Positions 8,236-58,700 of a stretch of DNA of 64,000 nucleotides are shown here, in pieces; the first letter of the stretch is position 1; the number at the start of each line of letters is the position of its first letter. A program made the position numbers and the translations under genes. The stretch is from NCBI GenBank assembly GCA_029560585.1, contig JAKQKQ010000049.1, positions 1 to 64,000 of the forward strand, read 5' to 3'. The notes under the pieces were generated by a model. It ran no database searches and had not been told where the DNA came from. It was given only the letters and a program-made list of their open reading frames with translations. This stretch comes from Verrucomicrobiota bacterium (GTDB lineage: Bacteria > Verrucomicrobiota > Verrucomicrobiia > JADLBR01).

Positions 8236-10671
8236 TCAATCACCCAGGGTCAAGGGGTTAGTGCTCCCCGAACGATAGCCAACCGGGACGTCGGCCTCAG
8301 GCCAAGCCTTGAGGGTGAAAGTCAGATAGAAGAGGATCTCGTCCTTGGTGCCGCCGTTGTCGCGCACCTGGGTGGTGGCGGCCATCCGCCACGAGGTCAG
8401 GTCGCGGTAGAGAGAGTACTCTTGAAGTTCCAGGACAGAATCCTTGGCCTCGAAGATGTGGCGGGTCCCAACCGACCAATCCTCGTTCATGCGCCACAGC
8501 CAACCCATGGAGAATTTCGTGCTATCATCGAAAAACTCGTGGCCCGAGATGTGGCGTGCGTTAAGGGACAGTTCAAGGGGCCGGGCGACCTGCCACGTCA
8601 CCCTGCCGTTGTATTCGTGGAAACCATCATTATAGAGGTCGGTCGCGCCAAAGAGCTGGAGCTTCACCCAATTGACGGGCCTGAATGTCAGCTCGTTGTA
8701 CAGGTTCGAGGTGGGGTGATCCTCGTAGAGGTGGCCCTCGAGATCGAAGTCGATGTAGGTCGCCCACTCCAGGATGTCCCAATTGCGCCTGTCGCGGTGC
8801 GTCTGCCATTTCTGGCGGAAGCCGGTGCGGACCACGAGCTGGTTGTCGAGGGAATCGATCGAATTATACTGGGGGAAATCGAGCGGGGCGAGTCGCGTGG
8901 AGGGGAGGCGACCGTCGAACTGCATGATGCGATCGGCGGAGATGTTGGGGTCGGGGATGTAGGAGAAATTGAAAAAGGGCTCGATGACATGCCGGATGCC
9001 GTCGATGCCCCAGTTCGGGCGCTCGACGTCCCACGTGCGGGAGAGCTTGAATGAGCCCTCGAGGCCAAGGTTGAAAACGGCCCGCAGGACGCCGTCCCCA
9101 TCGTCAGCGCCCCGCACTCGCATGGTGTCGAAGCTGTCACGGTCGTGGCCATATTGGTCGTGGATATCCCCTTCATCGCCATACATCATCCCGTAGGCAC
9201 GGCTCATGCCATAGGACTCGGCGGGCAGAAAATACTCGTCGTTCTCACCCCAGGAATCGCTGTAATAGGTGAGGCGAAGGCCTGCCCGCGGCGCGAGATT
9301 CAGCCAGCCGAAGAGCTGACCGGGCACCGAAAGCTGGTGGAAGGTGTCCATCCGAAGCGCGTTGAAGTCGGTCGGCATGTCGGCGTCTTCGTTGGAAAAC
9401 TTGCGGTCGAACTGGGTCACCGAAGTCTGGCCGTTGTACTCGAGGTAGCCGCCCAGCCCGACGGGTTGGCGCTTGACATCCAGCGAGAGTTCGGGCTCCC
9501 GCTCGACAGTCTCGAAGAAATCGTTGAGCTGCTGGCGGCCCAGGAGCGTCAGGGTGTAATTGGGGTCGTATTTCACCAGCTCGACAAAATTATCGGGCAT
9601 GCGCTCCTTGCGGAAGTCGTGCTCGAAGAAGTCGCGCTCGAAACGCGGGTCGCTCAACTTATTGACGAAGACGTTGGCATAGATGTCCTTGTCCTCGGTC
9701 AGGTAGGCGCGCTGTTTGATGCGGAACCGGTACCGGCCGTAGTCGCCGGTCTTGTTCTCTTCGCCGCCGGAGGAAAACGGATCGTCGTCATGGGCGTAGT
9801 AAAAATCGGCTTCCCCCTGGCCGTACTCGCCCTCGCGGGAATACTGGCCCTTGCGGCGGCCATAGATCCACCGAAAATCGGTGCCGCCCGCGACGCCGCG
9901 CTCGCTCCGCAGGTCGAGATTGACCTTCATGTGCACGTTCTTGTCGAGCTCGAAGCCGTACCCCATCAAAAGGAACGCGCCCCACTCGGAGCTGTAGCCC
10001 GGGACGAACTGCACCGCGATGTCGGCGCCGCCGGGATCATAGACAATCGAGGGGACCCAAAACAGGGGCACAGAGCCGGCGGAGACCATGGCATCGCGCA
10101 TGATGTATCGGTTTTCGCCGGGCTCGTAGGAAAGGATGCGCGGTTTCACCTTGAAGCCAGGCTGCTGGATATTCTCGGTGGAGAACAGGGTGTCCTCGGC
10201 CTGATACATGACCGCATCGCCGGAACCGAGAGTCCGGATCTTTGCGACTTCGCCAACCACCGGCAGCGCCACGAACCGGAGGTTGTCTCCCTCCATGGCC
10301 TTGGTCTTCATGTTGTAGCGGACGCGATCTCCGCTCCAGACCATGCCGTCCTCGGTGTAGATCCTAACGTTGCCGGCGGCCTCGGCCCAGCCCACGTTGG
10401 TGTCGAAGGTCAACCTGTCGCAGTAGAGGGTCGTTTCCCCGTAGATCAGCTCGACGTTCTTCTCGGCATAGGCGATCCCGTTCTCGACGCGATTCTCGCC
10501 GTCGGCGGTCACCTGCACGCGGGCCGGAGTGCCCTCGGATTGGATCTGCCCCAGCGCGGGCATCTTCGGCATGTTTTGGGCAAGGCCCGTGCCCGGGGCG
10601 CACAACAACACCCCGACCACCGCCAAAGTGGCAAGCCTCTGACCCGAAACGTCTTTCAATCTCCTCAACAC
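8236..10671 (-). CDS. lptD: LPS-assembly outer-membrane protein LptD
   Basis: Outer-membrane barrel that inserts lipopolysaccharide at the cell surface, working with LptE and the LptB2FGC/A bridge. The protein has 811 residues. A signal peptide lies at residues 1-31 (LATLAVVGVLLCAPGTGLAQ). An OstA/LptA-like beta-jellyroll follows at about 50-190 (VQVTADGENRVENGIAYAEK, LIYGETTLYCDRLTFD, WAEAAGNVRIYTEDG). The rest is a long region of alternating short strands typical of the barrel (SERGVAGGTDFRWIYGRR, YLEYNGQTSVTQF). The first codon is GTG and a TTG follows directly; the ribosome site is weak, so the start may shift by a few codons. Upstream is the DUF3300 gene, 52 bases away. LptE was not seen. 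Confidence 0.88.
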   Translation of the reverse strand: MLRRLKDVSGQRLATLAVVGVLLCAPGTGLAQNMPKMPALGQIQSEGTPARVQVTADGENRVENGIAYAEKNVELIYGETTLYCDRLTFDTNVGWAEAAGNVRIYTEDGMVWSGDRVRYNMKTKAMEGDNLRFVALPVVGEVAKIRTLGSGDAVMYQAEDTLFSTENIQQPGFKVKPRILSYEPGENRYIMRDAMVSAGSVPLFWVPSIVYDPGGADIAVQFVPGYSSEWGAFLLMGYGFELDKNVHMKVNLDLRSERGVAGGTDFRWIYGRRKGQYSREGEYGQGEADFYYAHDDDPFSSGGEENKTGDYGRYRFRIKQRAYLTEDKDIYANVFVNKLSDPRFERDFFEHDFRKERMPDNFVELVKYDPNYTLTLLGRQQLNDFFETVEREPELSLDVKRQPVGLGGYLEYNGQTSVTQFDRKFSNEDADMPTDFNALRMDTFHQLSVPGQLFGWLNLAPRAGLRLTYYSDSWGENDEYFLPAESYGMSRAYGMMYGDEGDIHDQYGHDRDSFDTMRVRGADDGDGVLRAVFNLGLEGSFKLSRTWDVERPNWGIDGIRHVIEPFFNFSYIPDPNISADRIMQFDGRLPSTRLAPLDFPQYNSIDSLDNQLVVRTGFRQKWQTHRDRRNWDILEWATYIDFDLEGHLYEDHPTSNLYNELTFRPVNWVKLQLFGATDLYNDGFHEYNGRVTWQVARPLELSLNARHISGHEFFDDSTKFSMGWLWRMNEDWSVGTRHIFEAKDSVLELQEYSLYRDLTSWRMAATTQVRDNGGTKDEILFYLTFTLKAWPEADVPVGYRSGSTNPLTLGD

Positions 10672-10723: not shown

Positions 10724-13105
10724 TCAGTGGTGTTTGTTCTTCTTGTCCCCGCCCCCCCCGCCTTTGTTGCCGCCGCCCCCCTTATGGCCACCACCGCCGG
10801 AATAAGACTTGCCCCCATCAGACTTGAAACTGCCACCGTGACCGCCGCCGTGGCCGCCATTGCCGCCCTTGTTCCCGCCATCAAACTTGAAGCCACCGTC
10901 AGATTTCCGGTCGTAGGATCGCTTTTCGAAGCGCCCAGAACCAGAACTCCGGTTGAACGAGGATCCACCCGAACTGCCCAATCGGTCGCCGCCGTCATGG
11001 CGCTTGAACGTCTGGCCGGAGTTCCAATTTGAATCACGGTTCTTGCGCTCGTAGCTGCCGAAGTTCTGCCGCTCCGGCATCTGGAAGTCCTTCTGGGGCA
11101 CGGGGCGCTTGTGGGATTCGACGGTCCGGTTGGTGGAGCGAAGTGCGCCGTCGTTGCCGCGGTTTTCCCCACCATTTGAGACTTTCTCCCCGGCGCTGTT
11201 CCCCCGGAAACGGTTGTCGGATCCTCTTTGGCGGAATCCCTCCATGATCCGGTTGCTGGTCTCCTGATCTCGGCCGTGATTCTGGGTCCCGTTCACCGCC
11301 AAACCCTTCGGGAACTCGTTCACCCGCTCGGCCTTCGGGATGCCGCCCCCATTCTGAGAGGCCAGCCCATCCACGCCGTGATTCCCCCTGTGATCATTAT
11401 TCCCATCGCCGCCCCGCCTCCGCAGCCCATCCATGATCCGGTTGCTCCGGTTCTGGTCGTGCCCGAGGTTCTCGCCCCCGTTCGCGGTGAATCCCTTCGG
11501 CACTTCCTTGATCCCCTTGGCATTCAGGACACCGCTCCCACCCCGCGAAGACAACCCGGCGGTGCCGCGATCCCCGCCACGACCGCGACCAGAAAGACCC
11601 GTGGTCAAATCGGTCGATCTGACCCCGCCATTCGCCGGAGCATGCGATCGCTGGCGCTCGAGCGTCGCCGGAAACCCAGTGGCAGGCCCCGTGTACGCCA
11701 CACCGCGGCGGTGGTTGGGGTCGTGCTGCCAGCGGCTGAGTTCCGCGCCCCGGGCCGAGCCGCTCGCCCCCCCGGCACCTCCCGCCGAGAGGCGCGTGCG
11801 GTGCTCCGCCTGCGCGTTGGCCATGAGATCCTTGTATTTCTGGTTGCCATGGGCCCGCTCGAATCGCCCGCGCATCCACTCGCGATCTTCCGGCGAGAGA
11901 TTCCGCAGCTTTTCGACGAGGCCGGGATCCGTTATTCCCGCCCGGCCCCAGTCCATCGTCCGCCAATCGCCGTGTCTCAGGTCCACCCGGTCGAGATGCA
12001 CGCGGCGCCAGTCGACGCGGTTCCAGTCGAACCGCCGGAAATCCGAGTGCCTCCAGTCACAGTGGTTGATATCGATGTTGTCGATGTTGACGTGGCGCAG
12101 GTCGATATCCCTGCCGTGGTGGCGGAACCGATCGCAGTGCTTCCAGTCGAAGCGATCCCAATCGTGGTGGTCCCAGTCAATGCGGCAATGGCGATAGCGA
12201 TGATGGCCGTCGTACCACCAGTTGTCGTAGTCGTGGTAATAGACGAGATGCCGATCATACCAGTCGCAGTCATGCGACCAGAATAACGAGCCCACGGCCA
12301 CCCCCAGGCCGAACCCGATGTATCCGGGGCCCCAGGCGTCCACGTAGGCGTAGCGCGGCGGGTAGTACACGACCCCCGGATCGTACGTCGGCACGTAGAT
12401 CACTTCCGGGTCGGCGGGCTCCACGACGACCACGGTCCGGTCGCCCGTCCGCTCGACCTCGACGGTCTGTTTGTCATTCGATTTCAGGGTGCCAGCGGCC
12501 TGGGCCTTGAGGCGCATGCGCTGTACGGCGTCCAAGACGTCCTGCTCCTGGCCAAGGACCGCGTCACCAAGCTGGGTCGTCCAGTCGAGGTGCTCGTCCA
12601 TGTATTTCAGGACATCGGGGAATGCGCAGAGTGCCTTGACGCTCTGCGCCCAGTCTCGATCGGCGAGAGCCTTCTCCACGTCGGCGCCCTTGATGCCCCT
12701 GTTGGCCTGTGCCCAGCGCGACGCCTGCACCACCTCGAGCGGATAGGTCGAGGCGGGGAGCAACTGCGCGAGGAGCGGATCCGGGTAGAGGGCCACGGCG
12801 GCCACCAGTTCGTCCAATTGCTGGGCCGTGAGCACATTCGCCGTGGGGGCCGCCGGGACGGTGACCGCAGGGGAATCAGCCGTCACCACCTCTGCAGCCG
12901 GCGCGGGCGATTCTGTTCGGGGGGGAGGCGCCGGCATGCGATTCGGCGCCGTCTCGACAGCCGCCGCGGGCGGTTCGCTCAGCGGCGTGGTGGCCACAGC
13001 CGAAATCTTGGACTGTTGCCCGCACGCCGCAAACGTCGCGGCAAATCCCAACCCCAAGGTGCCCAATAGCACCCGATGTTCGTTAACCCTCAGGAATGCT
13101 TTCAT
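10724..13105 (-). CDS. DUF3300 lipoprotein with pentapeptide repeats and Gly-rich tail
   Basis: A 793-residue exported protein of unknown role. Residues 1-28 look like a lipoprotein signal (TLGLGFAATFAAC), then a Pro/Ala linker to about 90. DUF3300 spans about 91-300: LTAQQLDELVAAVALYPDPL, LLPASTYPLEVVQASRW and the YVPTYDPGVVYYPPRYAY motif. Residues 308-386 hold 16 in-phase pentads with Asp/Asn/His at every fifth position (see separate entry). The family motif RWQHDPNHRRGVAYTGPATG follows. Then come two copies of a unit of about 50 residues (GFTANGGENLGHDQNRSNRI and GLAVNGTQNHGRDQETSNRI), and a Gly/His/Lys-rich tail ending GGGGDKKNKHH. A GGAG ribosome site is seen. It is upstream of lptD, suggesting an envelope function, which is inference. 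Confidence 0.85.
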   Translation of the reverse strand: MKAFLRVNEHRVLLGTLGLGFAATFAACGQQSKISAVATTPLSEPPAAAVETAPNRMPAPPPRTESPAPAAEVVTADSPAVTVPAAPTANVLTAQQLDELVAAVALYPDPLLAQLLPASTYPLEVVQASRWAQANRGIKGADVEKALADRDWAQSVKALCAFPDVLKYMDEHLDWTTQLGDAVLGQEQDVLDAVQRMRLKAQAAGTLKSNDKQTVEVERTGDRTVVVVEPADPEVIYVPTYDPGVVYYPPRYAYVDAWGPGYIGFGLGVAVGSLFWSHDCDWYDRHLVYYHDYDNWWYDGHHRYRHCRIDWDHHDWDRFDWKHCDRFRHHGRDIDLRHVNIDNIDINHCDWRHSDFRRFDWNRVDWRRVHLDRVDLRHGDWRTMDWGRAGITDPGLVEKLRNLSPEDREWMRGRFERAHGNQKYKDLMANAQAEHRTRLSAGGAGGASGSARGAELSRWQHDPNHRRGVAYTGPATGFPATLERQRSHAPANGGVRSTDLTTGLSGRGRGGDRGTAGLSSRGGSGVLNAKGIKEVPKGFTANGGENLGHDQNRSNRIMDGLRRRGGDGNNDHRGNHGVDGLASQNGGGIPKAERVNEFPKGLAVNGTQNHGRDQETSNRIMEGFRQRGSDNRFRGNSAGEKVSNGGENRGNDGALRSTNRTVESHKRPVPQKDFQMPERQNFGSYERKNRDSNWNSGQTFKRHDGGDRLGSSGGSSFNRSSGSGRFEKRSYDRKSDGGFKFDGGNKGGNGGHGGGHGGSFKSDGGKSYSGGGGHKGGGGNKGGGGGDKKNKHH
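11948..12184 (-). repeat. Sixteen in-phase pentapeptide repeats inside the DUF3300 gene
   Basis: Residues 308-386 of the DUF3300 protein repeat with an exact period of five: Asp (or Asn/His) occurs at 310, 315, 320 and so on to 385. In 14 of the 16 pentads the next residue is Trp, Leu, Ile or Phe, and the preceding residue is mostly Ile, Val, Cys, Phe or Ser. Typical units are RFDWN, RVDWR, RVDLR, HGDWR. This is the order expected of pentapeptide-repeat beta-helices (small/hydrophobic, Asp/Asn, large hydrophobic), but with Trp often at the central position and many His and Arg outside. Confidence 0.75.
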
Positions 13106-16238: not shown

Positions 16239-16380
16239 TGTGGCAGCATCTTGCCCAAATCACCTCGCTCAACCGACGATTCATACGCATCGGACATGAG
16301 GATGGCCATACAAACGACGAATGATGCTGCACGCCATCGCCTCCTGCTATATAGTGCGTGTCGCGTACCCACCATATCTC

Positions 16381-19300
16381 ATGCGTCCCGTAGTTCTCTG
16401 CGCCCTAATCGTCATCAGTTCGGCTGCGGCCAGAGCTGACGAGTTCGACGTTCTCCGTCAGAGCTGGAAGGACATGACCACCGGCTCCGGCTACGACACC
16501 GCGGACCCGGACGTGGCCTCGCGCCTCGCCAGCACGGCGAATACGGCAAGCAACTACTGGTCCAGCATGGACAAGTCCCCCGCGCGCACATTCCTGTGGA
16601 GCGATGCGGCGAGCACCACCGTCTCCGCCGACATCACCACCGCCTACTCCCGCTTGCGGTCGATGGCGCTGGCTTACGCAACCGCAGGCTGCTCGCTGCA
16701 AACCAATGCCGGCCTGCTGGCGGACATCGCCGGTGGCCTCGATTGGATGAACACTAACCGCTACAACGCATCGAAGGCCCAATACGACAACTGGTGGGAC
16801 TGGGAGATTGGCTCGCCGATGCACCTCGCCGACATCACGGTGCTGCTCTACGACCAGCTCACGGCCACGCAGCGCTCAAACTACATGGCCGCCGTCGAAC
16901 ACAACACCCCAACGCCCGACATGACCGGGGCAAACAAGGTGTGGAAAGCCCGCGTCGTGGGCGTCCGGGGTTGCATCGTGAAGAACGCCGCAAAGATGGT
17001 GCTCGCGCGCGACGCCTTCAGCGCCGTCTTTCCCTACGTCACGAGCGGGGACGGCTTCTACACCGACGGATCGTTCATCCAGCACAGCTACCACCCTTAC
17101 ACGGCCGGCTACGGCGCGAGCCTGCTGGGCAACATGGTGCCCGTGCTGCGATGGCTCGCCGGTTCCACGTGGGAGGTCACCGACCCCGCGCAAAGCAACC
17201 TCTACCGGTGGATCTTCGATTCGTACGAGCCCATCATCTATCGCGGCGCGGCCTGGGACTTTGTGCGCGGACGCGAAATCTCGCGCTCGGGCGCATCACC
17301 CCAGGGCACCGGCCACGGCGTCATGGACCCCATCCTGCAGGTCGCGCAGTTCGCCCCGGCCGCGGAGGCGGCCCGCATCAAGAGCATGGTCAAATACTGG
17401 GCGCAGAGCGACACGGTGCGCAGCTTCGTCGGCGGGCGGCCCCTATCCACGCTCATGCTGGCGAAACAGCTCATGGCGGATCCGGCGGTGGAGCCGCGTG
17501 GCGAGCTCATCGGCCACTACACTTTCGCTGAGATGGATCGCGTCGTGCATCTCGGGACGGGCTACGGTTTCGGCCTCAGCATGTGCTCCAGCCGCATCGC
17601 GAATTTCGAGTCGATCAATGGCGAAAACCTGCGCGGCTGGTTCACCGGCGACGGCATGACCATCCTCTACAACGCCGACCTGAACCAATACGGCGACGCC
17701 TACTGGGCCACGGTGGACCATTACCGCCTGCCGGGAGTCACCGCCGACACCACCGCAACCAAGCTGCCCGCCGACACCGGCTACCCCATAGGCCCCCGCG
17801 CCAAGGGCCAGGGCACGCGCACGGCCTACAATTGGGTCGGCGGCGCCACGCTCGACAGCTTCGGCGCCGCCGGCATGCAGCTCGATGGCTGGAACGTGAC
17901 GCTCACGGCAAAGAAGTCGTGGTTCATGTTCGACGATGAGATCGTCTGCCTCGGGGCGGGCATCTCCAGCTCGGATGGCCGCCCCATCGAGACCATCGTG
18001 GAAAACCGAAAACTGTTGACGGCGGGCGGGGGCAACCCGTTCGTCGTCAATGGCACCCCCAAGCCCACGGTGCTCGGCTGGAGTGAGGCGATGACGGACG
18101 TCAGCTGGGCGCACCTCACCGGCAACATTGTCGGCTCGGATATCGGCTATTACTTCCCGCAACCCGCCGCGATCAGGGCAGTCCGCGAGGCGCGCACCGG
18201 CTCTTGGGCAGACGTCGATGACGGCGGCTCCACCGCTCCCATCACGCGCAACTACCTGCGCATGGGCTTCGAGCACGGCAGCAACCCGACGGGCGCCACC
18301 TACCAGTACGTGCTGCTTCCCGGCCGAAGCGCCCGCCGCGTGGGCCAATACGCGGAAGAACCGCAGATCTCCGTCCTGGTCAACGACGGCAACGTCCAGG
18401 CCGTCACCGAAAACACGCTGGGCATCACCGCCGCCAATTTCTGGACCGACGCCAGCAATACCGCCGGCATCATCACCTCGAACAAGAAAGCCTGCGTGCT
18501 CGTGCGGAACGACGGCGCGTTCATCGACGTCGCGGTGAGCGATCCCACGCAGGCCAATACCGGCACCATTACCCTCCAGATCGCCGCGGCCGCAAACTCG
18601 CTCGTCAGCGCGGACGACGGGGTCAGCGTCACCTCGATCTCGCCCGGGATCGCCATGACGGTCTCCGTGAACGGCTCCGCCGGAAAGACCTACCACGCCC
18701 GCTTCTATCTCGGCACGCCGCAATTGGTGAACGTGGCGCCCGAGGCGGACGCCTATGTCTACGACGCAAACACCAACTCGAACTATGGCACCAGCGGATC
18801 GCTCGTCGTCAAGAAGAGCGCCGCGGGCTTCAACCGCGAATCTTACCTCCGCTTCAACGTGCCCCCGTTGAGCGGCGCGCTCGTGGGCGCGGACCTCAGG
18901 CTCACGACGGTCTCCTCGAGTGCGCCCGGGGTGCATGGCGTCGCGCTGGTGAGCGACAATTCCTGGATTGAATCGGGCGCAGGCAGCATCACGTGGGCCA
19001 ACAAACCCCCATCGACGGGCCCGGTGCTCTCGACGTGGACGCCGGCGGTCGGCACACCGGTGAGCGCTGGCGTCCTGGGCGCCATCGCGGGCAGCGGCCC
19101 CGTGTCCTTCCGAGTCTATGCCACCACGCAGACCACTAACGGCTACGTTGAGTACGCATCGCGCGAGAATGGCACCGCAACGAACCGGCCGCAGCTCGCT
19201 CTGCACATCGGCCACACGCCCCCCGAAGTCGCAATCACCGGCCCCGCCGATGGCACCCTCATTGGCCGCGCCACGAACATCACCATCGTCGCCGAGGCCA

Positions 19301-20913
19301 CGGCGACAGACGGCGCGGTGACGAACGTTGCCTTCTTCGATGGTGCGACCCCGATCGGCACCGCACAGGACGCGCCCCACATGATCACCGTCCCGATCAC
19401 GGCCGGCGCACACCGTCTCACCGCGGTCGCCACAGACATCAACGGCCTCAGCACGACCAGTCTCGTGACGCGCATCGACGTGGCGTATGCGCCCACCGCC
19501 GAGCCCGGCAGCGCCACCACGCCCAAGGACACCGCCGTGGACATCGACCTGCGCTCGCTGGTCAGTGACGCCGACACCCCGGCGGCAAACATCCGTTTCA
19601 GCGTAAACGACGCCTCGAATGGCAGTGTTTTGTTGCTCGCCGACGGCCACACGGCGCGCTTCACGCCGGCCAACGGATACTGGGGCCCCGCGAGCTTCGA
19701 TTTCTCCGCGAGCGACGCCACAGAGGACCCGGCCATCCTCGCCCACTATCCTTTCCAGCCACCGGACGATCCCGCCGATATGCTGGCCGCGGACGTCTCG
19801 GGTCGCGAACGTCATGCCTCGCTCCAGGTGGCGGGCTCGGGATCGGCCAGCTACGGCGCCGATGTGCCCCCGGTCCTGAGCGGCTTTCAGACTCAATCGT
19901 TGCGCCTTACCGAAAATGGCGCCTCGGGCGGTGCAAAGTTGGACCGCGTCATCGGCACTAACGAATTCAACTTTCTGGGGGGCGACTGGACCGCAGCGGG
20001 CTGGTGTAAGCGCGCGGCCACATCCAATCTGGACGTCATCGTGCACTTCGGCACCGGCTCCGGTCAGACCGGCACGAACGAACTCCAGGTCCGCTTCGAC
20101 TCGGGCGGCAACAACCTCCGCCTGCTCAATGGCAACGCCACCGGCAATGATACCAGCATCACCACCACCGCTGGCACGAACACATGGCACCACTTCGCCG
20201 TGACGCGCAGCGGCGGCACGCTCTCGTTCTACCTCAATGGCGCGCCCGTCGGCAGCGATACCAGTTTCGCGCTCACGTTCGACCAGGCCGCGCCGGTGAG
20301 CTTCGGCGGCAACGGCTCCACCTCCGGATACGCGCCCGACCGGTGGTTCAACGGCGGGCTCGCAGACCTCGCCCTCTTCGGCCGCGCTCTTGGCGGCGCC
20401 GAAATCGCCCAGCTCGCCACCGCCAGCGACGTCCTTCACTTCAATGGCCAGACCGCCAACAACACCGTCTCCATCACCGTCCTGAGCCCCCTGGAGAGCT
20501 GGCGCCTCTCGCACTTCGGAACGACGGGCAATTCCGGCAACGCCTCCGACAACGCCGATCCCGACCGCGACGGAATCCCGAACGCCCTGGAATGGATACT
20601 CGGAGGCGACCCCCTCGCCTGCAGCATCGCCCCACTCCCGCGCTCGAGCGCGACCGCCGACCAGTTCGCGCTCACCTTCGCACGCGATGACGAATCCGAG
20701 TCCACCACGACACTGAAGGCCCAATGGGGCACCAATCTCAGGGATTGGTTCGATGTGCCGATCGGCTCCGCCAGTTCTGGGCCCGACGGAAACGGAGTGA
20801 CGGTCAGCATCACCGAAAACGGCACCGCGCCCGATGCCATCGTCGTCGCTGTGCCACGCCCCCAAGGCTCGGCAGACAGGCTCTTCTTGCGCCTCAGCGC
20901 CACGGTGCCGTAA
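16381..20913 (+). CDS. Secreted multidomain polysaccharide lyase, family 8 type
   Basis: Likely cleaves a uronate-containing polysaccharide (hyaluronan, chondroitin or xanthan-like) by beta-elimination. The protein has 1510 residues with a signal peptide at 1-20 (VVLCALIVISSAAARA). The PL8 alpha/alpha toroid covers about 20-330: DNWWDWEIGSPMHLADI, and GFYTDGSFIQHSYHPYTAGY with H235 and Y244 at the 9-residue spacing of the catalytic His/Tyr pair. The beta-sandwich domains follow to about 775. Then come a DNRLRE/CBM96-like domain (about 780-945, ADAYVYDANTNSNYGTSGSL), an Ig-like domain (about 945-1035), a cadherin-like domain, a LamG-like domain (about 1125-1360, HYPFQPPDDPADMLAAD) and a tail with DPDRDGIPNALEWILGGDPL as in many verrucomicrobial secreted proteins. 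The start at ATG 16381 puts the signal peptide first. Exact substrate is not predictable here. Confidence 0.87.
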   Translation: MRPVVLCALIVISSAAARADEFDVLRQSWKDMTTGSGYDTADPDVASRLASTANTASNYWSSMDKSPARTFLWSDAASTTVSADITTAYSRLRSMALAYATAGCSLQTNAGLLADIAGGLDWMNTNRYNASKAQYDNWWDWEIGSPMHLADITVLLYDQLTATQRSNYMAAVEHNTPTPDMTGANKVWKARVVGVRGCIVKNAAKMVLARDAFSAVFPYVTSGDGFYTDGSFIQHSYHPYTAGYGASLLGNMVPVLRWLAGSTWEVTDPAQSNLYRWIFDSYEPIIYRGAAWDFVRGREISRSGASPQGTGHGVMDPILQVAQFAPAAEAARIKSMVKYWAQSDTVRSFVGGRPLSTLMLAKQLMADPAVEPRGELIGHYTFAEMDRVVHLGTGYGFGLSMCSSRIANFESINGENLRGWFTGDGMTILYNADLNQYGDAYWATVDHYRLPGVTADTTATKLPADTGYPIGPRAKGQGTRTAYNWVGGATLDSFGAAGMQLDGWNVTLTAKKSWFMFDDEIVCLGAGISSSDGRPIETIVENRKLLTAGGGNPFVVNGTPKPTVLGWSEAMTDVSWAHLTGNIVGSDIGYYFPQPAAIRAVREARTGSWADVDDGGSTAPITRNYLRMGFEHGSNPTGATYQYVLLPGRSARRVGQYAEEPQISVLVNDGNVQAVTENTLGITAANFWTDASNTAGIITSNKKACVLVRNDGAFIDVAVSDPTQANTGTITLQIAAAANSLVSADDGVSVTSISPGIAMTVSVNGSAGKTYHARFYLGTPQLVNVAPEADAYVYDANTNSNYGTSGSLVVKKSAAGFNRESYLRFNVPPLSGALVGADLRLTTVSSSAPGVHGVALVSDNSWIESGAGSITWANKPPSTGPVLSTWTPAVGTPVSAGVLGAIAGSGPVSFRVYATTQTTNGYVEYASRENGTATNRPQLALHIGHTPPEVAITGPADGTLIGRATNITIVAEATATDGAVTNVAFFDGATPIGTAQDAPHMITVPITAGAHRLTAVATDINGLSTTSLVTRIDVAYAPTAEPGSATTPKDTAVDIDLRSLVSDADTPAANIRFSVNDASNGSVLLLADGHTARFTPANGYWGPASFDFSASDATEDPAILAHYPFQPPDDPADMLAADVSGRERHASLQVAGSGSASYGADVPPVLSGFQTQSLRLTENGASGGAKLDRVIGTNEFNFLGGDWTAAGWCKRAATSNLDVIVHFGTGSGQTGTNELQVRFDSGGNNLRLLNGNATGNDTSITTTAGTNTWHHFAVTRSGGTLSFYLNGAPVGSDTSFALTFDQAAPVSFGGNGSTSGYAPDRWFNGGLADLALFGRALGGAEIAQLATASDVLHFNGQTANNTVSITVLSPLESWRLSHFGTTGNSGNASDNADPDRDGIPNALEWILGGDPLACSIAPLPRSSATADQFALTFARDDESESTTTLKAQWGTNLRDWFDVPIGSASSGPDGNGVTVSITENGTAPDAIVVAVPRPQGSADRLFLRLSATVP

Positions 20914-46792: not shown

Positions 46793-49700
46793 TTACTTTC
46801 TATATTCAAGGTTCGTCAACAGCTTCCTGCATGTATCGCCAATTTTCCCGCTCATCGCCAGCAGGGCTCTGACCTCGATGCCGAGCGCCTCTCCTGGAAA
46901 CACGGTCCGTACGGACGCTTTCAAGAAAAGGGAAATGAATTTATCAGCAGTAAGGGTGAGGTACTCGTTTCCCCACGTATTTGGGCGCCCTGTGGGAGGG
47001 GGGATCTTCACGAAGCCGCTTGGGTCCACCCACATTATTGGATTGGCGTCCACATACAGGAAATCATGCAGCGATAGAGGGATTATGGGATTCCCGTCAT
47101 AGGGATCCCGGCTCAAGAATCGACCAATTGCGGAATCCATGTGACGCGCACGGAGGTACGTGAACCCGGTCTCAAGATCACGTTGCTCGCCGATGTATAG
47201 AAACGAGTTGATTTCGGTTCCCGACCGTGCGATAAGGGTGCCGAAGGCCTCGTAAGCGTACGTATCAGTGACATTCTTCAAGGCATTGCTGAGTGCCCGC
47301 GTATTTCCGAGGCCATCGACGTGGTAATAGTTGCGGCTGCCACCGCGGGTCTGAGAGATGAGGTCGAGGCCGTGGGTGTAGCGAGCGGTCAGGGTTCCGC
47401 CGGGGAGGTATTCCTCCAGCACCTCCTGAAACGGCCGGTTTTGGTCGATGAGGAACCGGGTTTCCGAGCCGTCGACCGTCTTGGAGACGCGGATGTTGTC
47501 GGCGTCGTAGTGGAATTGGACCGCGGAGGATGGCGACGTCACGGACTTGAGGTGGTCCAGGGCGTTCCACTGGTTGGTTGTGGGGTTTTGGCCGTCGCTG
47601 GTCTTGGACAGGAGGCGGCCGGCGTCGTCCCAGCCGTAGACGATGTTCGTTCCGGCGAGGCTCTCAGTGAGAAGGCGATCGTTGTCGTCATAGTCGTAGG
47701 TTGTGAGGCCGCTGCCGGGCTGGCCGACCACGGTTCGGGACAGGCGGTTTCCGACCGGATCGTAGAGGTAATCTGCGGTGCGGTTCCCGGTGACGGGATC
47801 GGTGATTTTCTCCTGGGTCAACCGGTCGAGGGCGTCGTACTGATATTCAAGGAAGCGGCCGGCGTGCTCCTCGACGGCCATGCGGTTGCCGTTGGCATCG
47901 AGGGTGTACCGGTGGCTGGTGATCACGCTTCCGTCTCCCTTTCGATTCTCAAGATAGAGTAGTCGGTTCAGGGGGTCAAACGTGCGGGTTTCGGCGACGC
48001 CGTTCGGGAACAGGGTCTCGATCAGGCTGCCGACAGGGTTGTATCGATATGCGGTCGTGGCGCCATCCGTGTCGACAACCGCTTCTAGCCGGTTGAGCGC
48101 ATCGAAGCTGTACGTCACGGTCCCGGAGGGTGTCGTGACGGTGAGGGCGTTCCCCGCCGCGTCATACGTGTACCCGATCTGGCGGCCATCGGGCTCGGTG
48201 CGCGACTTCAGGCGGTCTCTCTCGTCATAGGTCCACGTGATGGTGCCGCGGGGAGCCGTGAAGGTTTCGCGCTTTCCGGTGGGTGTGTAGGTGAAGCCGT
48301 GGGTGGCGCCGTCGGGGATGCGGCGCTCGGTGAGGCGGTTTCGGGGGTCGTAGGCCATGGCGATGGCTTCGCCGTTGAAGGTGATGTTGGTGATGGGGTT
48401 GCCCGCGGGGTCGTGGATTGTTTCGGAGCGCTGGCCGCGGGGCAGGACCATGGCGGTGCGGCGGCGGTTGCCATCGTATTCGTATTTCCGCTCGTGGCCA
48501 TTGGCATCGATTTCGCGAACGAGGTTGCCGACCGCATCGCGCTCGTAGGCGGTGCGCTGGCCGAGGGCGTCGATCACGGCGGTCAATTCGTTCAGGAAAC
48601 TGTATTCGAATCGGGTGTCGCGTCCCGCCGGGTCGGTGCGTTTGACGACGTTGCCCCGGCCATCGAAGGCGCGGCTCTCCCGCGTGCCGTCGGCGAAGAT
48701 CGTGGCCGTCTCGCGGCCCGCGCCGTCGAAGAGCGTCTGCGCCACGCGGCCCAGCGGATCGGTCACGGCAATCTGTCGGCCCGCCGCGTCGTGGCGGTAG
48801 GTGGTCTCATGGCCGAGGGCGTCGCGGCGCAGGATCATGCGGTTGGCCGCGTCGTACTCGAACTCGGTGCGGTTGCCGCGTGCGTCAATTTCCGCGCTCA
48901 GCCGTCCCGCCGCATCCCACTCCTTGCGTTCTGTGGGATTGTCGGCGAGCCCCGCGGGATCGGGCTCCTCGGCGAAGTCTTCGTCGGTGCCATCGGGATG
49001 GATCGTGGCGATGAGGCGGCCGAGGGCATCGCGCACGTGGCGCGTGAACCGGCCGTTTTCGTCGGCCACAGCGATGGTGTTGCCCAGATCATCGTGCCGC
49101 CGTTTGATGCGCGGATTGTCCGCGAGGTTGCCGGGAGTGTCGTCCGGGAAGATCGCCTCGATGAGGTTGCCTCGCTCATCATACCGATGCTCGGTGCGGT
49201 GCCCGCGCGGATCGATCTCGGCGGTCTTCTGTCCCGCCGCGTCATATTCGGTGCGTGTGATGCCGCCCTCGGGATCGGTTCGGGCGATCACGCGCCCCTC
49301 GGCATCGTATCCCAGGCGCGAGACGCGCCCGAGGGGATCGGTCAGGGTGACGGGGTTGCCCATGGCATCATAGGTAAACTCGTATGCGCCATTGGCGGGG
49401 TCCCGGAGCGTGACGAGATTCCCGGCGTCGTCATTTTCCAGACTAAACGCGTTGCCTTCGGGATCGGTGAGGCGCATCGGCAAACGCCTTGAGTCATACT
49501 GCGCCGAGACGGTGTTGCCTGCGCCGTCCTTGCGGAACAGCCGGTTGCCAGCAGCATCATAGGTGTTCACGGTCGTATTGCCCATGGGATCGACCTGGGT
49601 CAGCGGGAGGTTCTGCGCATTGAAGGTGCGGCGCGTAGTGTTTCCCAGGCCATCACTTTCGGTGAGTGGGTTCCCGCGGGCGTCATAGGTCCAGGTGCGG

Positions 49701-52700
49701 GTGTGGCCGAGGGGGTCGGTCGCGCTCAGGAGGTTGTTGTTGTCGTCGAAGGTGCGCCGGGTGAGGCCGTTGAGGGCGTCGAGTTCGCGAACGACGTTCC
49801 CGCGCTCGTCATAGAAATACGTCCTGGGATGGCCGAGCGGATCGGTGATGGTTTCTTGGAGAGCGGCCATATCGATGTCGATCTCGGTGGCGTTGCCCTC
49901 GGCGTCGATGACTCGCGTGATGCGGCCTTCCTCGTCATATTCGGTTCGGGTGGTCGGGCGGTTGAGCGGGTCGATGATTCGGTCGAGGTAATGGGGGTGG
50001 GTCTGTTTGTAGATGTACGTCGTCGTGTTGTCGGCGCGGTCCGTGACGCCGACGAGATCTCCGTTCGGGTCATACGCATATTGGATCGCCTTCCCGTCGG
50101 GGGTCTGGATGGCGGTGATGCGGCCGAGGGCGTCGCGGGAGAAGGTGATGGAGTCGCCGGAGGAGTGGGTGATGGCGTCGTCGGAGAAGGTGAGTGCATT
50201 GCCGTTGCGGTCGGTGACGTCGAGGAGGCCGTCGGATTCGGAGTAGCGGTACGTGCGGCCGTCGCGGGTGGTGAGGCGGTATACGGAGGGGTTGTAGGGG
50301 AGGTGGAAGAGGTAGTGGTAGACGGAGCCGTCGGGGTCGATGCTGAGTGTGGCGTCGTCGACCTCGAGGGTATCGAGGACCCCGCGGTCTGGGACGAAGC
50401 GGGGTTGCCAGGTGGTGCCGAAGAGGCCGGCGCCGGCACCCTCCGAGGTCTCCTGGAGGGTGGGGAGGAAGGTGAAGCCGACGCGGCGTCCGTCGGGATG
50501 CGTGAGGGTGACGCGGGCGCCGGTTTTGAAGGGGTTGGCGGCGAAGATGGCGGGGACGCCCTGGGCTTCGAGTGAGGATTTGGGGACCGATTCGCGGACG
50601 CGGCCCTGTCGGAACTGGAGGCGCCAGCCGTGGCCGAAGTCCTCGGAGCGGCTCGCGTCGAGGGTGTCATAGACGCGGGTGATTTGGATCGGGATGCCGG
50701 CCAGGGGGAGGTTGAGGTCGGTGATGGCGAAGGTGAAGCGTCCGGGTTTGAGTTCGCCGACGACCGAGAGGATGACCGCGGCGGCCTCGGTGCGGCCGTT
50801 GACGTCGCGGGCGATGAGGCGCAGGACGTAGGAATCGTTGGCGAGGACCGTGGGGTCGAGGGTGCCGAGGGGGCCGTTGTCGAGGTTGGCGGTGCCGCTG
50901 GCGAGGAGGCGGTAGTCGGGGTCGTGTGCGGCGACGTTGTCGAGGGAAACCAAATCCATGGGGGCGACTTCGAGGCGCCAGTATTCCAGGGCTTCGTCGC
51001 GGACGGTGCCGCGGACGGCGGTGGCGACGTCGATGACGCCGTTGGTGGGGAACTGCGCCGTCGGGAGATCGACGAAGGGGCCTTCGGAGTCCTCGGGGTC
51101 GATGACACGGATCTGGACCGAGGCGGAGCCGGTGAGCCCGGCGGCGTCGATGGCGGTGGCGACGACATCGAAGAGCCCGGGGTTGGGGAAGGTGATCTTG
51201 GCGCCGTTGAACTGGATGGGGACGGGGGTGCCGTCGAGCGCGAGGCCGAGGGATTGGATGCCGGCGTTGTCGGAGGCGTGGATGAAGAAGGAGACCGTCT
51301 CGCCCTTCTTGATGAGGTCGCTGGAGGCGGAGAGCAGAACGCGGGGGACGTCGGCATCGGCGACGACGGCCAACGTGAAGGATTGGGTGGCGGTGCCGCC
51401 GCGGCCGTCGGAGACTTCGATGGTGATGGGATGGGAGGTGCCGATTTGCGAGGGGGAGGAAGACCAGGAAAGGAGCGCCGAGCTTGGATCGCCGAGCGAC
51501 GAATCGATCTCCATGCCCTGCGGACCACTGAGGATGGTGAATGTGAGGAAGTCGCCGTCGGGGTCGTGGGCGCGGAGGGTGTAACGGTAGGCGGTGCCAC
51601 CGATGGCGGTGGCGAGGGGTTCGGAGACGAAGAAGGGAGCGTCGTTGGGGGCGACGCGGATGGTGAAGGAGAGGATAGCGGCGCCGCCGTCGGGGTCCTC
51701 GGCGACGATCGTGACGCGGTGGTCGCCTTCGGTGGTGAGAGCGGTCTGCCAGCGGAGTTCGCCGGTGACGGGGTCGATGGTCATGCCCTCGGGGGCGTCC
51801 TGGAGGCGGAAGGTGACCTCGCCCTCCTCGGGGTCGGAGGCGGTGATCGTCCAGGAGTAGAGGTCGCCTGGGTTGACCCCGAGGGGCGGGTCGCCGCCGA
51901 TGGTGGGCATCTCGTTGGGGGCAGTGGGTGAGACGAAAATTTCAAATCGCTGGGCGGTGATGCCGCCGTGGGGGTCTTGGGCGAGGAGTTCGATGGCTTG
52001 AACTCCAAGCTGGGAGCTATCCGGGGTCCAGGAAACGAGCGCCGAGCGCGGATCGCCGAGCGACGAACTCAAGGCCATGCCGGAGGGGGCGGTTAGCAAC
52101 TGGAAGGTGATGGGGTCGCCTTCGGGGTCTTGGGCTTGGATCTTGTATTGATAGAGGTGGTCGAGGGCGGCGGTGGTTGGGGGGGTGGAGGTGATGGCGG
52201 GGGGGAGGTTGGCGCCGCGGACTGTGAGGGTGAAGGATTGGGTGGCGAGGCCGCCGAGGTTGTCGAGGACGTGGAGGATTATTTCGTGGGAACCCAGGTC
52301 GTCATCGGTGGGAGTCCACGAAATGAGCGCCGAACTCACGATCATTCCCGCGGGGGCGGATTCGAGGATGTAAGAGAGCGGGTCACCGTCGGGGTCGGAG
52401 GCGAGGATGGGGCAGGAGTAGGGCTGGCGGACGATTGCGGCGGTGATGGGGACCGAGGTGATCTCGGGGTCGGCGTTGGGGTCGCCGGAGAAGACCTGGA
52501 TGGTGAAGGTTTGCTCGGCGGGGGCGCCGCGACCGTCAGAGAATCGGAGGGTGACGGGGTGAGAGCCGAGCTGGGAGCTGGTTGGGGTCCAGATGAAGGT
52601 GGGAGAGGACGACGAATAGGAAGAACTCAAGGTCATGCCGGCGGGGGACTGGAGGATCTGGAAGGACAATGGGTCGCCGTTGGGGTCGTGGACGGTGGGT

Positions 52701-55700
52701 TGGTAGGACCAGGTGTCGCCGAAGCGGACACGGGTGGATGGGGTGGATGTGATGACGGGGGGATCATTGGAGGCGTCGGCGACGACCGCCAACGTGTAGG
52801 ATTGGATGGACTCGCCGTTGTGGCCGTCGAGGGCGGTGATCTCGATGGGATGAGTGCCGATCTCGCCGGTGGTGGGCCGGAAGCGGAGGATGCCGGTGGT
52901 GGCGTCGAAGTCGAAGTCGCCGGGCGGCGGGCTGTCGAGGCGGAAGGAGATCGCGTCGCCATCGGGGTCCCGGGCGCGGAGGCGGTATTCGTAGGGGAGG
53001 TCGGCGACGGCTTGTGAGGGAGCAACGGAGAGGATCACGGGGGCATGGTTGGCGGAGCCGACGGTGAGTTGGAAGGGCTGGAGGGTGACGGCGCCGCGAG
53101 CGTCGGTGGCGCGGAGGATGATCGTGTGGGTGCCGATCTGGTCGCCCGTTGGCGACCAGATGATGGAAGATGGAAGAAGGAAGGCAGAAGATGCAGAGGA
53201 AGAACTTAGGATCATGCCTTCGGGGGCGAGGGCGAGAGTGACGGTGATGGCATCGTGGTCGGGGTCGGAGACGGCGATGTCGTAGCGGTACTGCGTGTTG
53301 GGGAGCGCGGTGGTTTGGGGGAAGGAATCGAAGACGGGGTTGCGGTTGAGGGCCTCGACGGCGGCCTCGAGAGTGAAGGATTGGGTGGCCTCGCCGCCGC
53401 GGCCGTCGATGACGCGGATGGTGACGGGGTAGGCGCCGGTCTGGTCTGGGCTTGGAGACCAGGAAATGAACGCAGAACGCGGATCGCCGAACGACGAATG
53501 CAAGGCCATGCCATCGGGGCCTTCGACGAGGAACCAGGTCAGGGGGTGGCCGTCGGGGTCTTCGGCGCGGAGTTGGTAACCGTAGTTGCGGCCAACATCG
53601 GCGAGCGTCGGGGGCTGGGAGGTGATGGCGGGGTTTTGGTTGGCGGTGCCGGCGGTGACCTCGAGCTGGAAGCGCTGGGTGGCGGAGGCGCCCTGGCCGT
53701 CGTCGGTGCGGATGGCGAAGGCGTAGGTGCCGGGGGCGGTGGGCACCCAAGCGATGTCGCCGGTGGCGGGGTCGATGGTGGCGCCGTCGGGGCCCTCGAG
53801 GAGGGCGTAGGCGAGCGGGTCGCCATCGGGATCCACCGCGCGGGCGCCGTAGCGGTAGCGCTGGCTCATGCTCACGGGGATCGAGCCGAGGAGGCGACCG
53901 GTGCCGGGATGGACGAAGAGCAACTCGAAAGAGCGTGCGTCCTCGGGCGCGGTGAGCCGGACGTCGAAGGCCGCGGTTCTGCCGGGGGTCATGCCGTAGA
54001 GTGGGCCGGTGAGGTTCTCGAAGCCGACGGTGGCGTCCGAGCAGCGCAAGTCGACCACGGCGAGCTGGCGGAGGATTTCCTCGGCCTTGATATCGACAAA
54101 GGCGCGGGTGAGGGATTGGGCCATGAGCGGGCCGCCTTGGCTCACTTGGGTGAGGTCCCAGGAGCCGCCACCGGAGGCCCATGAGAGGTCCACGTAGGTG
54201 CGCTTGACGTCATCGGAGGTGTGGCCCTCGAAGATCGGCCCGATGAAGACCCCGTTGGTCGAAGTGGTGTAGCCCCCCGCCCCGTCGGGCAGGTACGCGT
54301 TGCCGTCCGCATCCACGCCGAGGGCGCGGTTGCCGAGGGCGTCGGCAAACTCGGCGTTGACGACGCTATTGAGCGGGGCGTTGAGCGCGCGGAGCCCCTC
54401 GAGCATCACGTTGGTGGTCAGGTAGGGGCGGTAGCCGAAGAAATGGTCGTTGTCGCTGAGGAGGATGAAGTTCTTCGCGGCCTCGGGACGGAAGGCGAGG
54501 CTATTCATGGCGAGATCCAGGGCGCAGTAACCGTCCTCCTGGCCGAAGGCGGAGTAGAGATCCAGGGCGTGCTCAGAGGTCCACGCGGCAGTCTGCGCGG
54601 TGCCGAAGAAGGGCTCGAGGCGCAGGGCCTGCCCTGCCTTGGCCTCAAAGCGGTAGACGAGGGCGTCGGGCGGGGCGAAAAGGTCCCCGGCGAGCGCCTC
54701 GCCGACCGGACGCGCCGCGGCGCGGGTGTGGAGGCGGAAGGCGTAGTCCCCGGTGGCGTCTCCGCCGTAGACCAGCAGCGCGTAGGTGCCCGATTCGGGG
54801 AGCGTCATGGGACCCACGTCCGCCGAAGGGGAGGGTGAGAGCACCCCGAGCAGCGAGACTCCCTTCGGACTATACAGGTAGCACTTGATGGCCGCCGATG
54901 CCGCGACACGTCCATCGAAGTAAATCCTCTCACCCGCCCCGGCGGTGAAGTGGTAGACGTGGCGGTCGCCCGGGTTGGCTAGGGAACCGGCGATGGTCCG
55001 GTCGGTCTGGGCGGGGATGAAGGCGTCCTCGGGGAACGTCGCGCGGAAATCGTAGGAGATGGCTGCGGCGGTATTGCCGGCGATGACTAGGACGCAGGGT
55101 TCGGCACAGGGCAGGGTCGTGTCGAGGCTGACGGTGCCATACTCCGAGTCGATCTGCTTGTTGTCGGGCCCATAGAGGTTCCAATGGCCGACCGTCGAGG
55201 TGCCGGGGAGCTTGTCGATGAAGAGCCGATGACCGGCGGCGCCCTGGACGCGATAGGCGACGGCGCCGAGCCCGGGATCCAGCGTGCCGGTGGTCTCAAC
55301 ACCAGGGGTCAGGAGTGGGGCGTCGGAGAGGTCGAGGATGCGGACGGCGTAGTTGCCGGGCTGCGCGCCGGTGACCACGAGCGTATAGGCACCGGATTGC
55401 GGCAGCACGACAGGCCCGCGATCGGCGTTTGCGGCGGTCGCCCCGATGGCGGCGGATCCGTTCGGGGCGAGCAGGTAGGCTTGCAATTGGGACGAATCAG
55501 CGGTGATTCCGTCGAAGTAGACCCGGAGACCGGCCGGCGCGTGGAGGGTGTAACGATGCTCCTCGTTGGCCGCGGCAATCGCACCCGAATAAACGGTACC
55601 GAAGCCCGAGGCCGTGACGGGGACAGGGTCGGTGACCGTGGCGCGGAACCGGTAAGTGATGGGATTCGCGGAGCCATTATCGATCGCGAGCGTGTAGGTG

Positions 55701-58700
55701 CCATCGGAGGGGAGCACGGCCGTGAAATCCCAGCCCAGGGGCTGCACGCCAAGCCGGGAGCCGCCGGGACCCCACAGGCTCCACTCGCCGTAGGCAGAGG
55801 AGAGACCATCGAGGTCCATCCGCTGCCCGGCCCGGCCCTCAACGAGGAAGATTCGCCTCTGGTACGGGCCGCCGACAGCGACCTCGATGTCGGTGCCCGT
55901 GGCGACCGGTTCCGCGGCGGCCTCGTCGAGCAGGCAGAACGCGTAATCGCCCGTTTCCATGCGGTCGTCGAAGTGGATCGCGTAGGTGCCGGTCTCGGGC
56001 AGGACGATGGGGCCGCCGTTGGCCCAGAGGGAGTATCCGCTGAGGCCGGGCACCACGGTGCCCGAGGGTGTGATCAGGGACACGATCTGCCGCGAGCCGT
56101 AGTTGACCGGAGAGCGACCGTCATACCAGAGACGCTGCCCGGCGTTGCCATGAAACTGGTACAGGACGGACTGGCCCGGCTCGGCCACGGTGTCATGGAC
56201 AAGCGTGCCGACCGTGAGAGGCAAGGTGCGCGTGGTGGCCACGAGGGCCCGGAAGGTGTGGTCGTAGGCCGTCGATCCGGACGTGTTGCGCAGGAGGAGG
56301 TAGTAGGTGCCATCGGCAGGTAATGAGGCCATGAAGGAACTGGCCAGGCCGGTGCCAGCGGAGAACTCGTCGGCACCGAAAAGCTGCCACGCCTCCCCGT
56401 AGGTGTGGGGCGCGATCGATTCGACGTGGAAGAGCAGGCGCTGTCCGGCCGTGCCCTCGACGCGGTAGGCGACGGCCTCTCCGGCGCGGAGGTGGGTCGC
56501 GGCGCTCTCCCCTGTCCCGATGGGCGGGGCGGCGGACAGGTCGTGGAGGCGGAAGCTGTACGGCCCGCCGGAACCGACGTCGGCCAGGATCAGGTGATAG
56601 GTGCCGGAGACCGGGAGGCTGGTCATCTTGTAGTAATCGCCGCTGGCGGCGTGGCCGCCGATCACGACCAGATTGCCGGGCCCGACGAGGCTGGCGCGAG
56701 CCGAGGTCGGGGAGGCGCGCCCGTCGTAAAAGACCGGGAGTCCCGCGGGGGCGCGGAAGGTGTTGGTGATGGTCTGGCCGGGGGCGAGCGTGCCGCTGTA
56801 GGTCTGGTCGAAGCCCTCGGGGGCGACCGCCTCGGGTTCGGGGCCAAGCGAGGCGGGCAGGCGGAAGGACTGGGGCAGGTCGGCATCGCTCCTCGGGGTG
56901 ACCACCACTGTGTAGGCGCCGTCGGCGGGCAGCGCGTCCATGCCGTGGCCGGAGACCCCGTCCCACGAGCAATTAACCGAGCCGATCTTGCGGTTACTCG
57001 GGGAGAAGACGCTGACATAGCCCATGAGCCCGCTGGTGTTGACATGGCGCGGGTTGACGGTGAAGGCGGTCATGGCGAAACGATTCGAGGTGATCCCGAT
57101 ATCCTCGAGCCTAGCGTCGAGGGCCGGTATCATGTCGGCGAGCCAGGCGTGCTCGGTGAACATCGAGCCGGTCTCATCGACGACAAAGACCACGTCGGCC
57201 GAACCCCCGAGGGTGCCGTCCCCCGAGAGCGCCAGCGAAACGGTCGCTACGGTGCCGGTGCCGGGCGGCAGGTCGTAGGCGAGGAAGGCCGGGTCCACGT
57301 CACCGCAGGCCGTGCGGGCCGCAGCGATGGCGAATTGGGTGGCGGGTTCCGATACGAAGGCGGGGGCATGGTTGCCGGGGCTCTGGCCGACGGCGACGCA
57401 GAAGGTCTGGGTCGCCGTCCCGCCGCGGCCATCCTCGGCGCGGAGGGTGATCGTATGGACGCCGGTCTGGTGGCCAGTTGGCGACCAGATCAGGCGCGAG
57501 GCGGCAGGCTCGAGGCTCGAGGTCAGGGTCATCCCCGCAGGGCCGGAGACGAGGCTGAGAGTGACGGGGTCGCCGTCGGGATCATCGGCCTTCGGTGAGT
57601 AGGCGTACTCGGCGCCGATGTTGGCATCGACCACGGGGGTCGAGGTGAAGACGGGCGGGCGGTTGGGGGTGTCGCTGTGGACCGAGAGGGTGAAAGACTG
57701 GGTGGCGGAGGCACCGCGTCCATCCTCGACGCGGAGGGTGATGCGGTGGTTGCCGAGGTCGTCTGGACCGGGGGTCCAGACGAGGCGCGAGGTGCTAGGT
57801 TCTGGGCCCAAGGTGAGGGTCATGCCGGAGGGGGCGGCTAGCAATTGGAACGCGAGGGCGTCGCCGTCGGGATCCTGGGCGATCGCGTCGTAGCGGTACT
57901 CCGCGCCGGGGGCGGTGGTGGAACGCGGTGTGGAGGTGAAGGCGGGCGGGTGGTTTGCCGCCCCAAGGAGGGTGAGGCGATAGGAGAAGCGGACGCGGTT
58001 CGGGTTGTGGAACGCGATGGGGCGCGCGGCGGTGGAAGCGCCGGGCCCGAGGCCATCCTCGGGCAGGAGGTTCGAGAAGTCGAAGGCGGGTTTGCCGTCG
58101 GGCGTGAGGCCATCGGCGCCGAGCACGCGGACCGAGGGGTCGCTGATGCCGTCGATGACGAGGACGATCTTCCCGGCGATGGGCGCATCGCCGGAGTTCT
58201 GGAGGGCCAGATCGGCGAACAACGTCCCGGAAGTCTCGTCGAAGGAGGTGCGGTGGTAGACTGACTCAAGGTCGGCGGTGATGTCCGCAAGGCCGTCGAG
58301 GGCTTCCGGGTGGAGTACGCCGGGGGAGATCGACGGGGGCGCGGCGTTGGTGGGGAAGGCGAGGTTCGTCTGCACGAGGCTGACCGGACCGATGCGCACC
58401 GCGGTGGTGGCGTCGGCGTCCTCGTTGACGAGGCGGGCGACCAGACGCGCCCCGGTGCCTTGCGGCAGGCCCGAGATATCGATATGGACGGTGCCCGCGC
58501 CGTTGGTCATGTCCAGCAAGACTCCCGCCGCGATGGCGGGCGCCTCGCCCTCGGTGAGGTTGAGGGCTGCGTCGCGCCCGGGCGCGAAGGCGGGTACCAG
58601 TGGAACGCCGTTGGTGTCGACCAGCGCGATCTCGAGGGCGTCGTTGATCGCCTGGGGGTCGGCGGTATCGAAAGCAAGGTTGGTGAAGCTCACCGCCAGC

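Follow-up and report, generated by a model that had tools for sequence, protein, structure and literature searches.

A period-five repeat in a DUF3300 protein of a Verrucomicrobiota bacterium and its counterpart in rhizobial relatives

DUF3300 proteins are represented by E. coli YacH, for which the available text of PMC9600279 reports that a deletion outperforms the wild type under protamine; its authors call yacH a resistance gene. In rhizobia, a DUF2950 gene follows DUF3300 according to the accessible part of PMC4653623. Our literature search retrieved no structure or activity for DUF3300, and the accessible portions of the DUF3300 papers found describe neither the repeat presented here nor the pentad segment of the rhizobial family members. 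Pentapeptide-repeat proteins, which share a period of five residues with this repeat, fold as a right-handed quadrilateral beta-helix (PMC7476756, accessible part) and are recognised by Leu or Phe at every fifth residue (PMC8007378, likewise in its accessible part). The literature search on Trp in pentapeptide cores gave nothing on point.

The DUF3300 protein and its pentad array

The window, a stretch of 64,000 nucleotides from a Verrucomicrobiota bacterium (contig JAKQKQ010000049.1), encodes on the minus strand an open reading frame of 793 amino acids (P0001, 10724..13105), identified as a DUF3300 protein by PF11737 (E=5.4e-64). All features of this protein given below are located on the same strand. 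The DUF3300 domain covers residues 94-313 (12167..12826) with 216.2 bits, above the curated cut-off of 25 bits, and the repeat is thus placed inside a DUF3300 protein, as had been proposed from the sequence. A signal peptide with the lipobox FAAC was read off the sequence at residues 1-28 (13022..13105). By direct reading, the orthologue of a congener carries LAAC, and a paralogue of the same genome has no Cys at this site. Judged by the signal sequence only, the protein is exported, and it is probably a lipoprotein in two of the three cases; the earlier designation as a lipoprotein fits the window gene and the congener, but the array itself is not specific to lipoproteins.

Like other DUF3300 proteins, among them E. 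coli YacH and rhizobial members, the window protein possesses the DUF3300 domain, a Gly-rich hydrophobic segment, a CDW-type motif, a D/N-alternating stretch, a W-x-H-[ND] motif, and a basic tail. The Gly-rich segment, including GYIGFGLGVAVGSLFW, corresponds to residues 258-276 (12278..12334); in this area, 57 out of 61 DUF3300 sequences harbour GxxxG. The glycine zipper was dropped as a mark of the family, given that GxxxGxxxG is present in just 19 of the 61. After the repeat follow a segment that is helical in both AlphaFold2 models (residues 390-436, 11798..11938) and the motif WQHDPNHRRGVAY (residues 459-471, 11693..11731), largely invariant across the three sequences of the genus and of the same type as motifs in the DUF3300 proteins L092, L099, and L108. 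The basic Gly-rich tail (residues 481-793, 10727..11665) has a net charge of +22 and 24% Gly, and is fast-evolving. By eye, a duplicated unit (KGIKEVPKGF...NRIMDGLRRRG and RVNEFPKGL...NRIMEGFRQRG) was also seen in the tail region (10724-11700).

The original prediction located the repeat at 11948-12184, which correctly corresponds to residues 308-386. Starting at D310, residues 310-389 form 16 in-phase pentads, DWDHH DWDRF DWKHC DRFRH HGRDI DLRHV NIDNI DINHC (units 1-8) and DWRHS DFRRF DWNRV DWRRV HLDRV DLRHG DWRTM DWGRA (units 9-16). Asp, Asn, or His occurs at every fifth residue in 16 out of 16 units, with Trp, Leu, Ile, or Phe next to it in 14, which agrees with the prediction. The second position is occupied by Trp in eight units, Leu or Phe in four, and Ile in two; units 4 and 5 deviate, with R and G, respectively. 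When residues 290-411 were shuffled 20,000 times, no shuffle attained the run of 16 Asp/Asn/His (best, 12), and the joint count with the hydrophobic position, 30 of 32, compares with 23 in the best of these shuffles. Among the other periods from 2 to 11 no run exceeded 8, found at period 10, and the autocorrelation of hydrophobic residues has its maxima at lags of 5, 10, and 15 (0.65, 0.61, and 0.62). Since codon usage varies from unit to unit, the repeat exists at the protein level and a recent DNA duplication was rejected as its source; the sole tandem array detected in it is a weak 15-bp match of 2.1 copies.

The phase was described as unbroken, and it is kept in all 16 units. However, this depends on H330, where the congener has Gly and the paralogue Arg. 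Because units 4-5 (DRFRH HGRDI) are off the pattern, the array is better read as three plus eleven units: pentads 1-3 (DWDHH DWDRF DWKHC; residues 310-324, 12134..12178), a phase-keeping break of ten residues, not kept as pentads in congener and paralogue (residues 325-334, 12104..12133), and pentads 6-16 (residues 335-389, 11939..12103).

The repeat is real and conserved. Over 81 columns no indels were found between the window protein, the paralogue (L002, 53% identity), and the orthologue in the congener (G001, a Verrucomicrobiia MAG; contig also JADLBR010000343.1), for which L003 and L004 are the same protein and were counted once. Between window and congener, dN/dS was 0.08 for the repeat, 0.11 for the DUF3300 domain, and 0.10 for the helix after the repeat, against 0.40 for the tail and 0.41 for the N-terminal linker, all rough values as dS is above 1 and near saturation. 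Purifying selection on the repeat, including pentads 6-16, is as strong as on the DUF3300 domain. With i denoting the position of the Trp, the invariant positions of the three sequences over 17 units are 13 at i-1, 12 at i, 8 at i+1, and 6 at i+2, and each Trp at i is retained in all three.

Distribution and relatives of the array

DUF3300 relatives were encoded in 20 genomes among 141 relatives, and the long array in two of these 20; it was absent from 20 other DUF3300 loci (L005-L024). A profile of the repeat region matched three out of 384 class genomes (G000, G001, G194), and a shorter repeat profile two out of 387 phylum genomes (G000, G194). The G194 match was discarded as an unrelated array, as its open frame consists of near-identical DLVRT/DLVRA pentads and is not DUF3300. 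In the sampled genomes the true long array is restricted to this genus, where the window gene, the paralogue, and the congener provide three sequences from two species. Among 45 distinct DUF3300 sequences compared at the array site, the same three have eight of eight in-phase paired units, and the next best has four of eight. Runs of five in L013 and L036, reached in 4 and 14 of 400 shuffles, were taken as chance because 41 proteins were tested, a set drawn without some loci such as L002, L100, and L112. Spread by phage or plasmid was also considered and rejected, since tblastn with the repeat region gave no match at E<=0.01 in either and no viral contig.

Several proteobacterial DUF3300 proteins (e.g. 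L090, L092, L094, L099) are rich in Asn at this place, ahead of a motif of the W-x-H-[ND] type, in agreement with the original prediction, which put Asn-rich stretches of other DUF3300 proteins before WxHDPxHRRG. At the array site, D/N-alternating stretches were found as DVNINVNRYNNINVN in Cupriavidus metallidurans (L090) and as NINIDVNNFNRIT in the DUF3300 protein that E. coli encodes between acnB and aceF (L094). The window stretch DIDLRHVNIDNIDIN (residues 333-347, 12065..12109) resembles those of L090, L094, and L040 in a by-eye alignment without a score. The proposal that the Asn-rich stretch had become the repeat is not supported in this simple form: the D/N-alternating hallmark can still be seen at residues 333-347, flanked by pentads, and the relatives in rhizobia possess about seven similar pentads.

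The rhizobial DUF3300 segment, of the type GKVKWNDVDWKNVDRSKIKFDRDQLNKFDRTNIKNN, comprises about seven in-phase pentads in ten out of ten aligned sequences, these being ten rows from eleven loci (L112 has no row, and one locus is the non-rhizobial Paroceanicella). Position i-2 is mostly hydrophobic in these pentads, and the supposed core position i holds Arg or Lys in two of the seven units in all ten rows. The segment is present in 140 plasmid records; in these and in L104 (2074-2400), a conserved CxxC was observed just upstream of the conserved WNDVDWKNVDRSK pentad segment. Profile alignment with hhalign placed the rhizobial segment on units 7-15 of the window (residues 343-385, 11951..12079; score 28.6, E 2.4e-5, 43 columns). 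Column shuffles (100) scored at most 16.1 and none of 100 unit-order shuffles reached the natural score; the best of the latter gave 28.07, so the match of the pentad grammar is strong and that of the specific order marginal. A tblastn search with the repeat and the following helix found no rhizobial DUF3300 at E<=10; its six plasmid matches, four of them annotated as pentapeptide-repeat proteins, were all non-significant. In DUF3300 proteins of Burkholderiaceae (L099, L102, L108), one or two hDRxK-like units precede the motif, a number within chance in the run test (25, 180, and 57 of 400 shuffles, respectively).

The occurrence of about seven pentads of the same grammar at the same place of rhizobial DUF3300 argues for the expansion of an old DUF3300 motif and against a captured module. 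The array, in which the window protein differs from other DUF3300 proteins by 14 regular pentads with Trp, looks like a lengthened form of an element of this family.

Resemblance to pentapeptide-repeat proteins and predicted fold

Similar to the pentapeptide-repeat proteins (PF00805, PF13599; QnrB1, HetL), the array has Asp or Asn before a hydrophobic centre, and a small or aliphatic residue two positions before it. The phmmer search of the window repeat against PDB sequences yielded 15 matches up to E=10, all 15 by name pentapeptide-repeat or designed pentapeptide proteins (including beta1, which we take to be a designed one), with QnrB1 as the best match (E=0.0016). A free shuffle of the repeat gave no match in this search. 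With PF00805 (cut-off 20.2 bits) the window repeat scored 18.8 bits and the congener 22.5 bits, and the paralogue did not match; with PF13599 the window repeat reached E=1.3e-4. Against the pentapeptide proteins of the class itself (six rows from three proteins), hhalign scored the array 22-25, compared with at most 11.2 for 60 column shuffles. In the same set the natural order within the pentad ranked second of 24 cyclic orders, and the only order ranked above it merely swaps two outward positions. By this ranking, the residue order of the pentad matches pentapeptide-repeat proteins specifically; the resemblance is genuine at the sequence level and conjectural at that of the fold.

The original prediction read the array as a four-sided beta-helix with Trp in the core, and a canonical right-handed helix of this kind, arisen or captured in the genus, is a somewhat doubtful explanation, with the rest of the probability left to another ordered period-five arrangement or to disorder. 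The matches described above and the invariant Trp at i speak for the canonical helix. Against it, AlphaFold2 did not return such a fold. The run with 25 aligned rows, of which 22 have no repeat, reached pLDDT 30-44 over most of the array, and the run with a clean alignment of the three repeat-bearing rows (mean pLDDT 74, pTM 0.65) gave about 59-91 by decade, lowest (about 59-60) over the first part. Judged from the secondary-structure string, this second, moderate model has few strands and a three-residue helical turn at i, i+1, and i+2 in eight of 16 pentads; the turns at W361, W366, L371, and W381 are common to both runs. Foldseek of both models against the PDB recovered no pentapeptide-repeat structure, nor did VIA-align, whose comparison covered the 4 and 270 candidate chains supplied by Foldseek. 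For the model mda4741040368, in which the N-terminal part of the DUF3300 domain (12334-12826; model residues 10-165) has pLDDT mostly 89-97, Foldseek with the whole model as query had no PDB match below E=1. The composition also departs from pentapeptide-repeat proteins, as Trp is central in eight of 16 units and Leu or Phe in only four. In the class pentapeptide proteins Trp is found at i in 0 of 671 pentads, and the core volume per four pentads is 1096 +/- 69 A3, with a maximum of 1307, in a redundant set of about four proteins whose filter favours L/F/M/I/V/W/Y. The array has 1135-1475 A3, and a four-sided core would be overfilled by that standard. Moreover, it is embedded in an exported DUF3300 protein, the paralogue repeat has no pentapeptide match among PDB sequences and only E=0.17 with PF13599, and the rhizobial counterpart, with Arg or Lys at i in two units, scores only 13 in hhalign against the pentapeptide set.

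The low pLDDT of the 25-row run, together with the biased composition and low-complexity flanks, would also suit a disordered Asp/His/Arg/Trp linker with the period as tolerated drift. We regard this as improbable, given selection of the same strength as on the domain, the absence of indels in the three sequences, and the rise in pLDDT with the clean alignment. Another proposal placed His and Arg on the outside of the helix, and the ten His within residues 309-389 of the window protein could suggest a face that binds metal or nucleic acid. However, at five of the six i+2 positions with His in the window protein, one or more relatives have R, K, or D instead, which gives no support to a conserved metal-binding His face, and cytoplasmic DNA would not be a partner of an exported protein; a binding function of this kind appears very improbable.

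We give about even chances to the explanation that a period-five element, already carried by DUF3300 proteins between the domain and the W-x-H-[ND] motif, has expanded in this lineage to form the array, stacked as an ordered arm. The unit is hydrophobic-Asp-Trp-x-x, in which a single tight turn is probably capped by Asp, and Trp, Leu, or Ile may pack inward. Fourteen such units could form a short solenoid arm, ordered and basic on its outer face. The hydrophobic staple with an N-capping residue is a motif of helix N-termini, and the array is similar to it in the spacing hydrophobic-Asp-x-x-x-hydrophobic and in the one turn per pentad of the models, but differs in that the motif is repeated head to tail; we know of no solenoid built of head-to-tail hydrophobic staples. 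A bolder reading, which we consider unlikely, is that a solenoid of Asp-capped one-turn pentads, each stapled to the next by a hydrophobic residue, is common to DUF3300 proteins from two phyla. Such a fold would be absent so far from the PDB, would have converged on the pentapeptide grammar, and would have been lengthened here with a Trp ladder.

Gene neighbourhood and possible role

The gene next to the DUF3300 gene encodes an LptD-like protein (8236-10671, minus strand), so called from sub-threshold Pfam scores (OstA_2 15.7 and LptD_2 13 bits, both below the cut-offs) and the by-eye similarity of the window and congener proteins. The congener has a similar protein at the corresponding place, and the window protein is perhaps a divergent LptD. 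The order GH10, DUF3300, LptD-like, UDP-glucose dehydrogenase, and arginine decarboxylase is shared with the congener. In this the locus differs from the DUF3300-DUF2950 pairs, where DUF2950 follows DUF3300 in nine out of nine records with a listed DUF3300 gene (L091, L092, L100, L101, L105, L107, L111, L114, L117). DUF2950 (PF11453) was not found in the genome of the window, and control genomes were equally without a match. Elsewhere in the window, an open reading frame of 4670 amino acids (46793-60805, minus strand) harbours RHS repeats in 26 stretches and several Ig-like and PKD domains, and a polysaccharide lyase family 8 protein of 1530 amino acids (16321-20913, plus strand) carries CBM96 and laminin-G-like domains.

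The signal sequence, the lipobox in two of the three sequences, the basic Gly-rich tail, and the LptD-like neighbour point to a location in the cell envelope. There the array would most likely act as a stiff, Trp-cored arm or docking surface, and such a rigid spacer could keep the fast-evolving basic Gly-rich tail off the DUF3300 core.

The new element here is the presence of about seven similar pentads in rhizobial DUF3300 at the place of the array. If the solenoid of one-turn pentads were true, the sequence profiles of pentapeptide repeats would flag two different folds. DUF3300 is a widespread exported family, and a conserved repeat that differs in length across phyla gives it a part to express, to solve, and to shorten.
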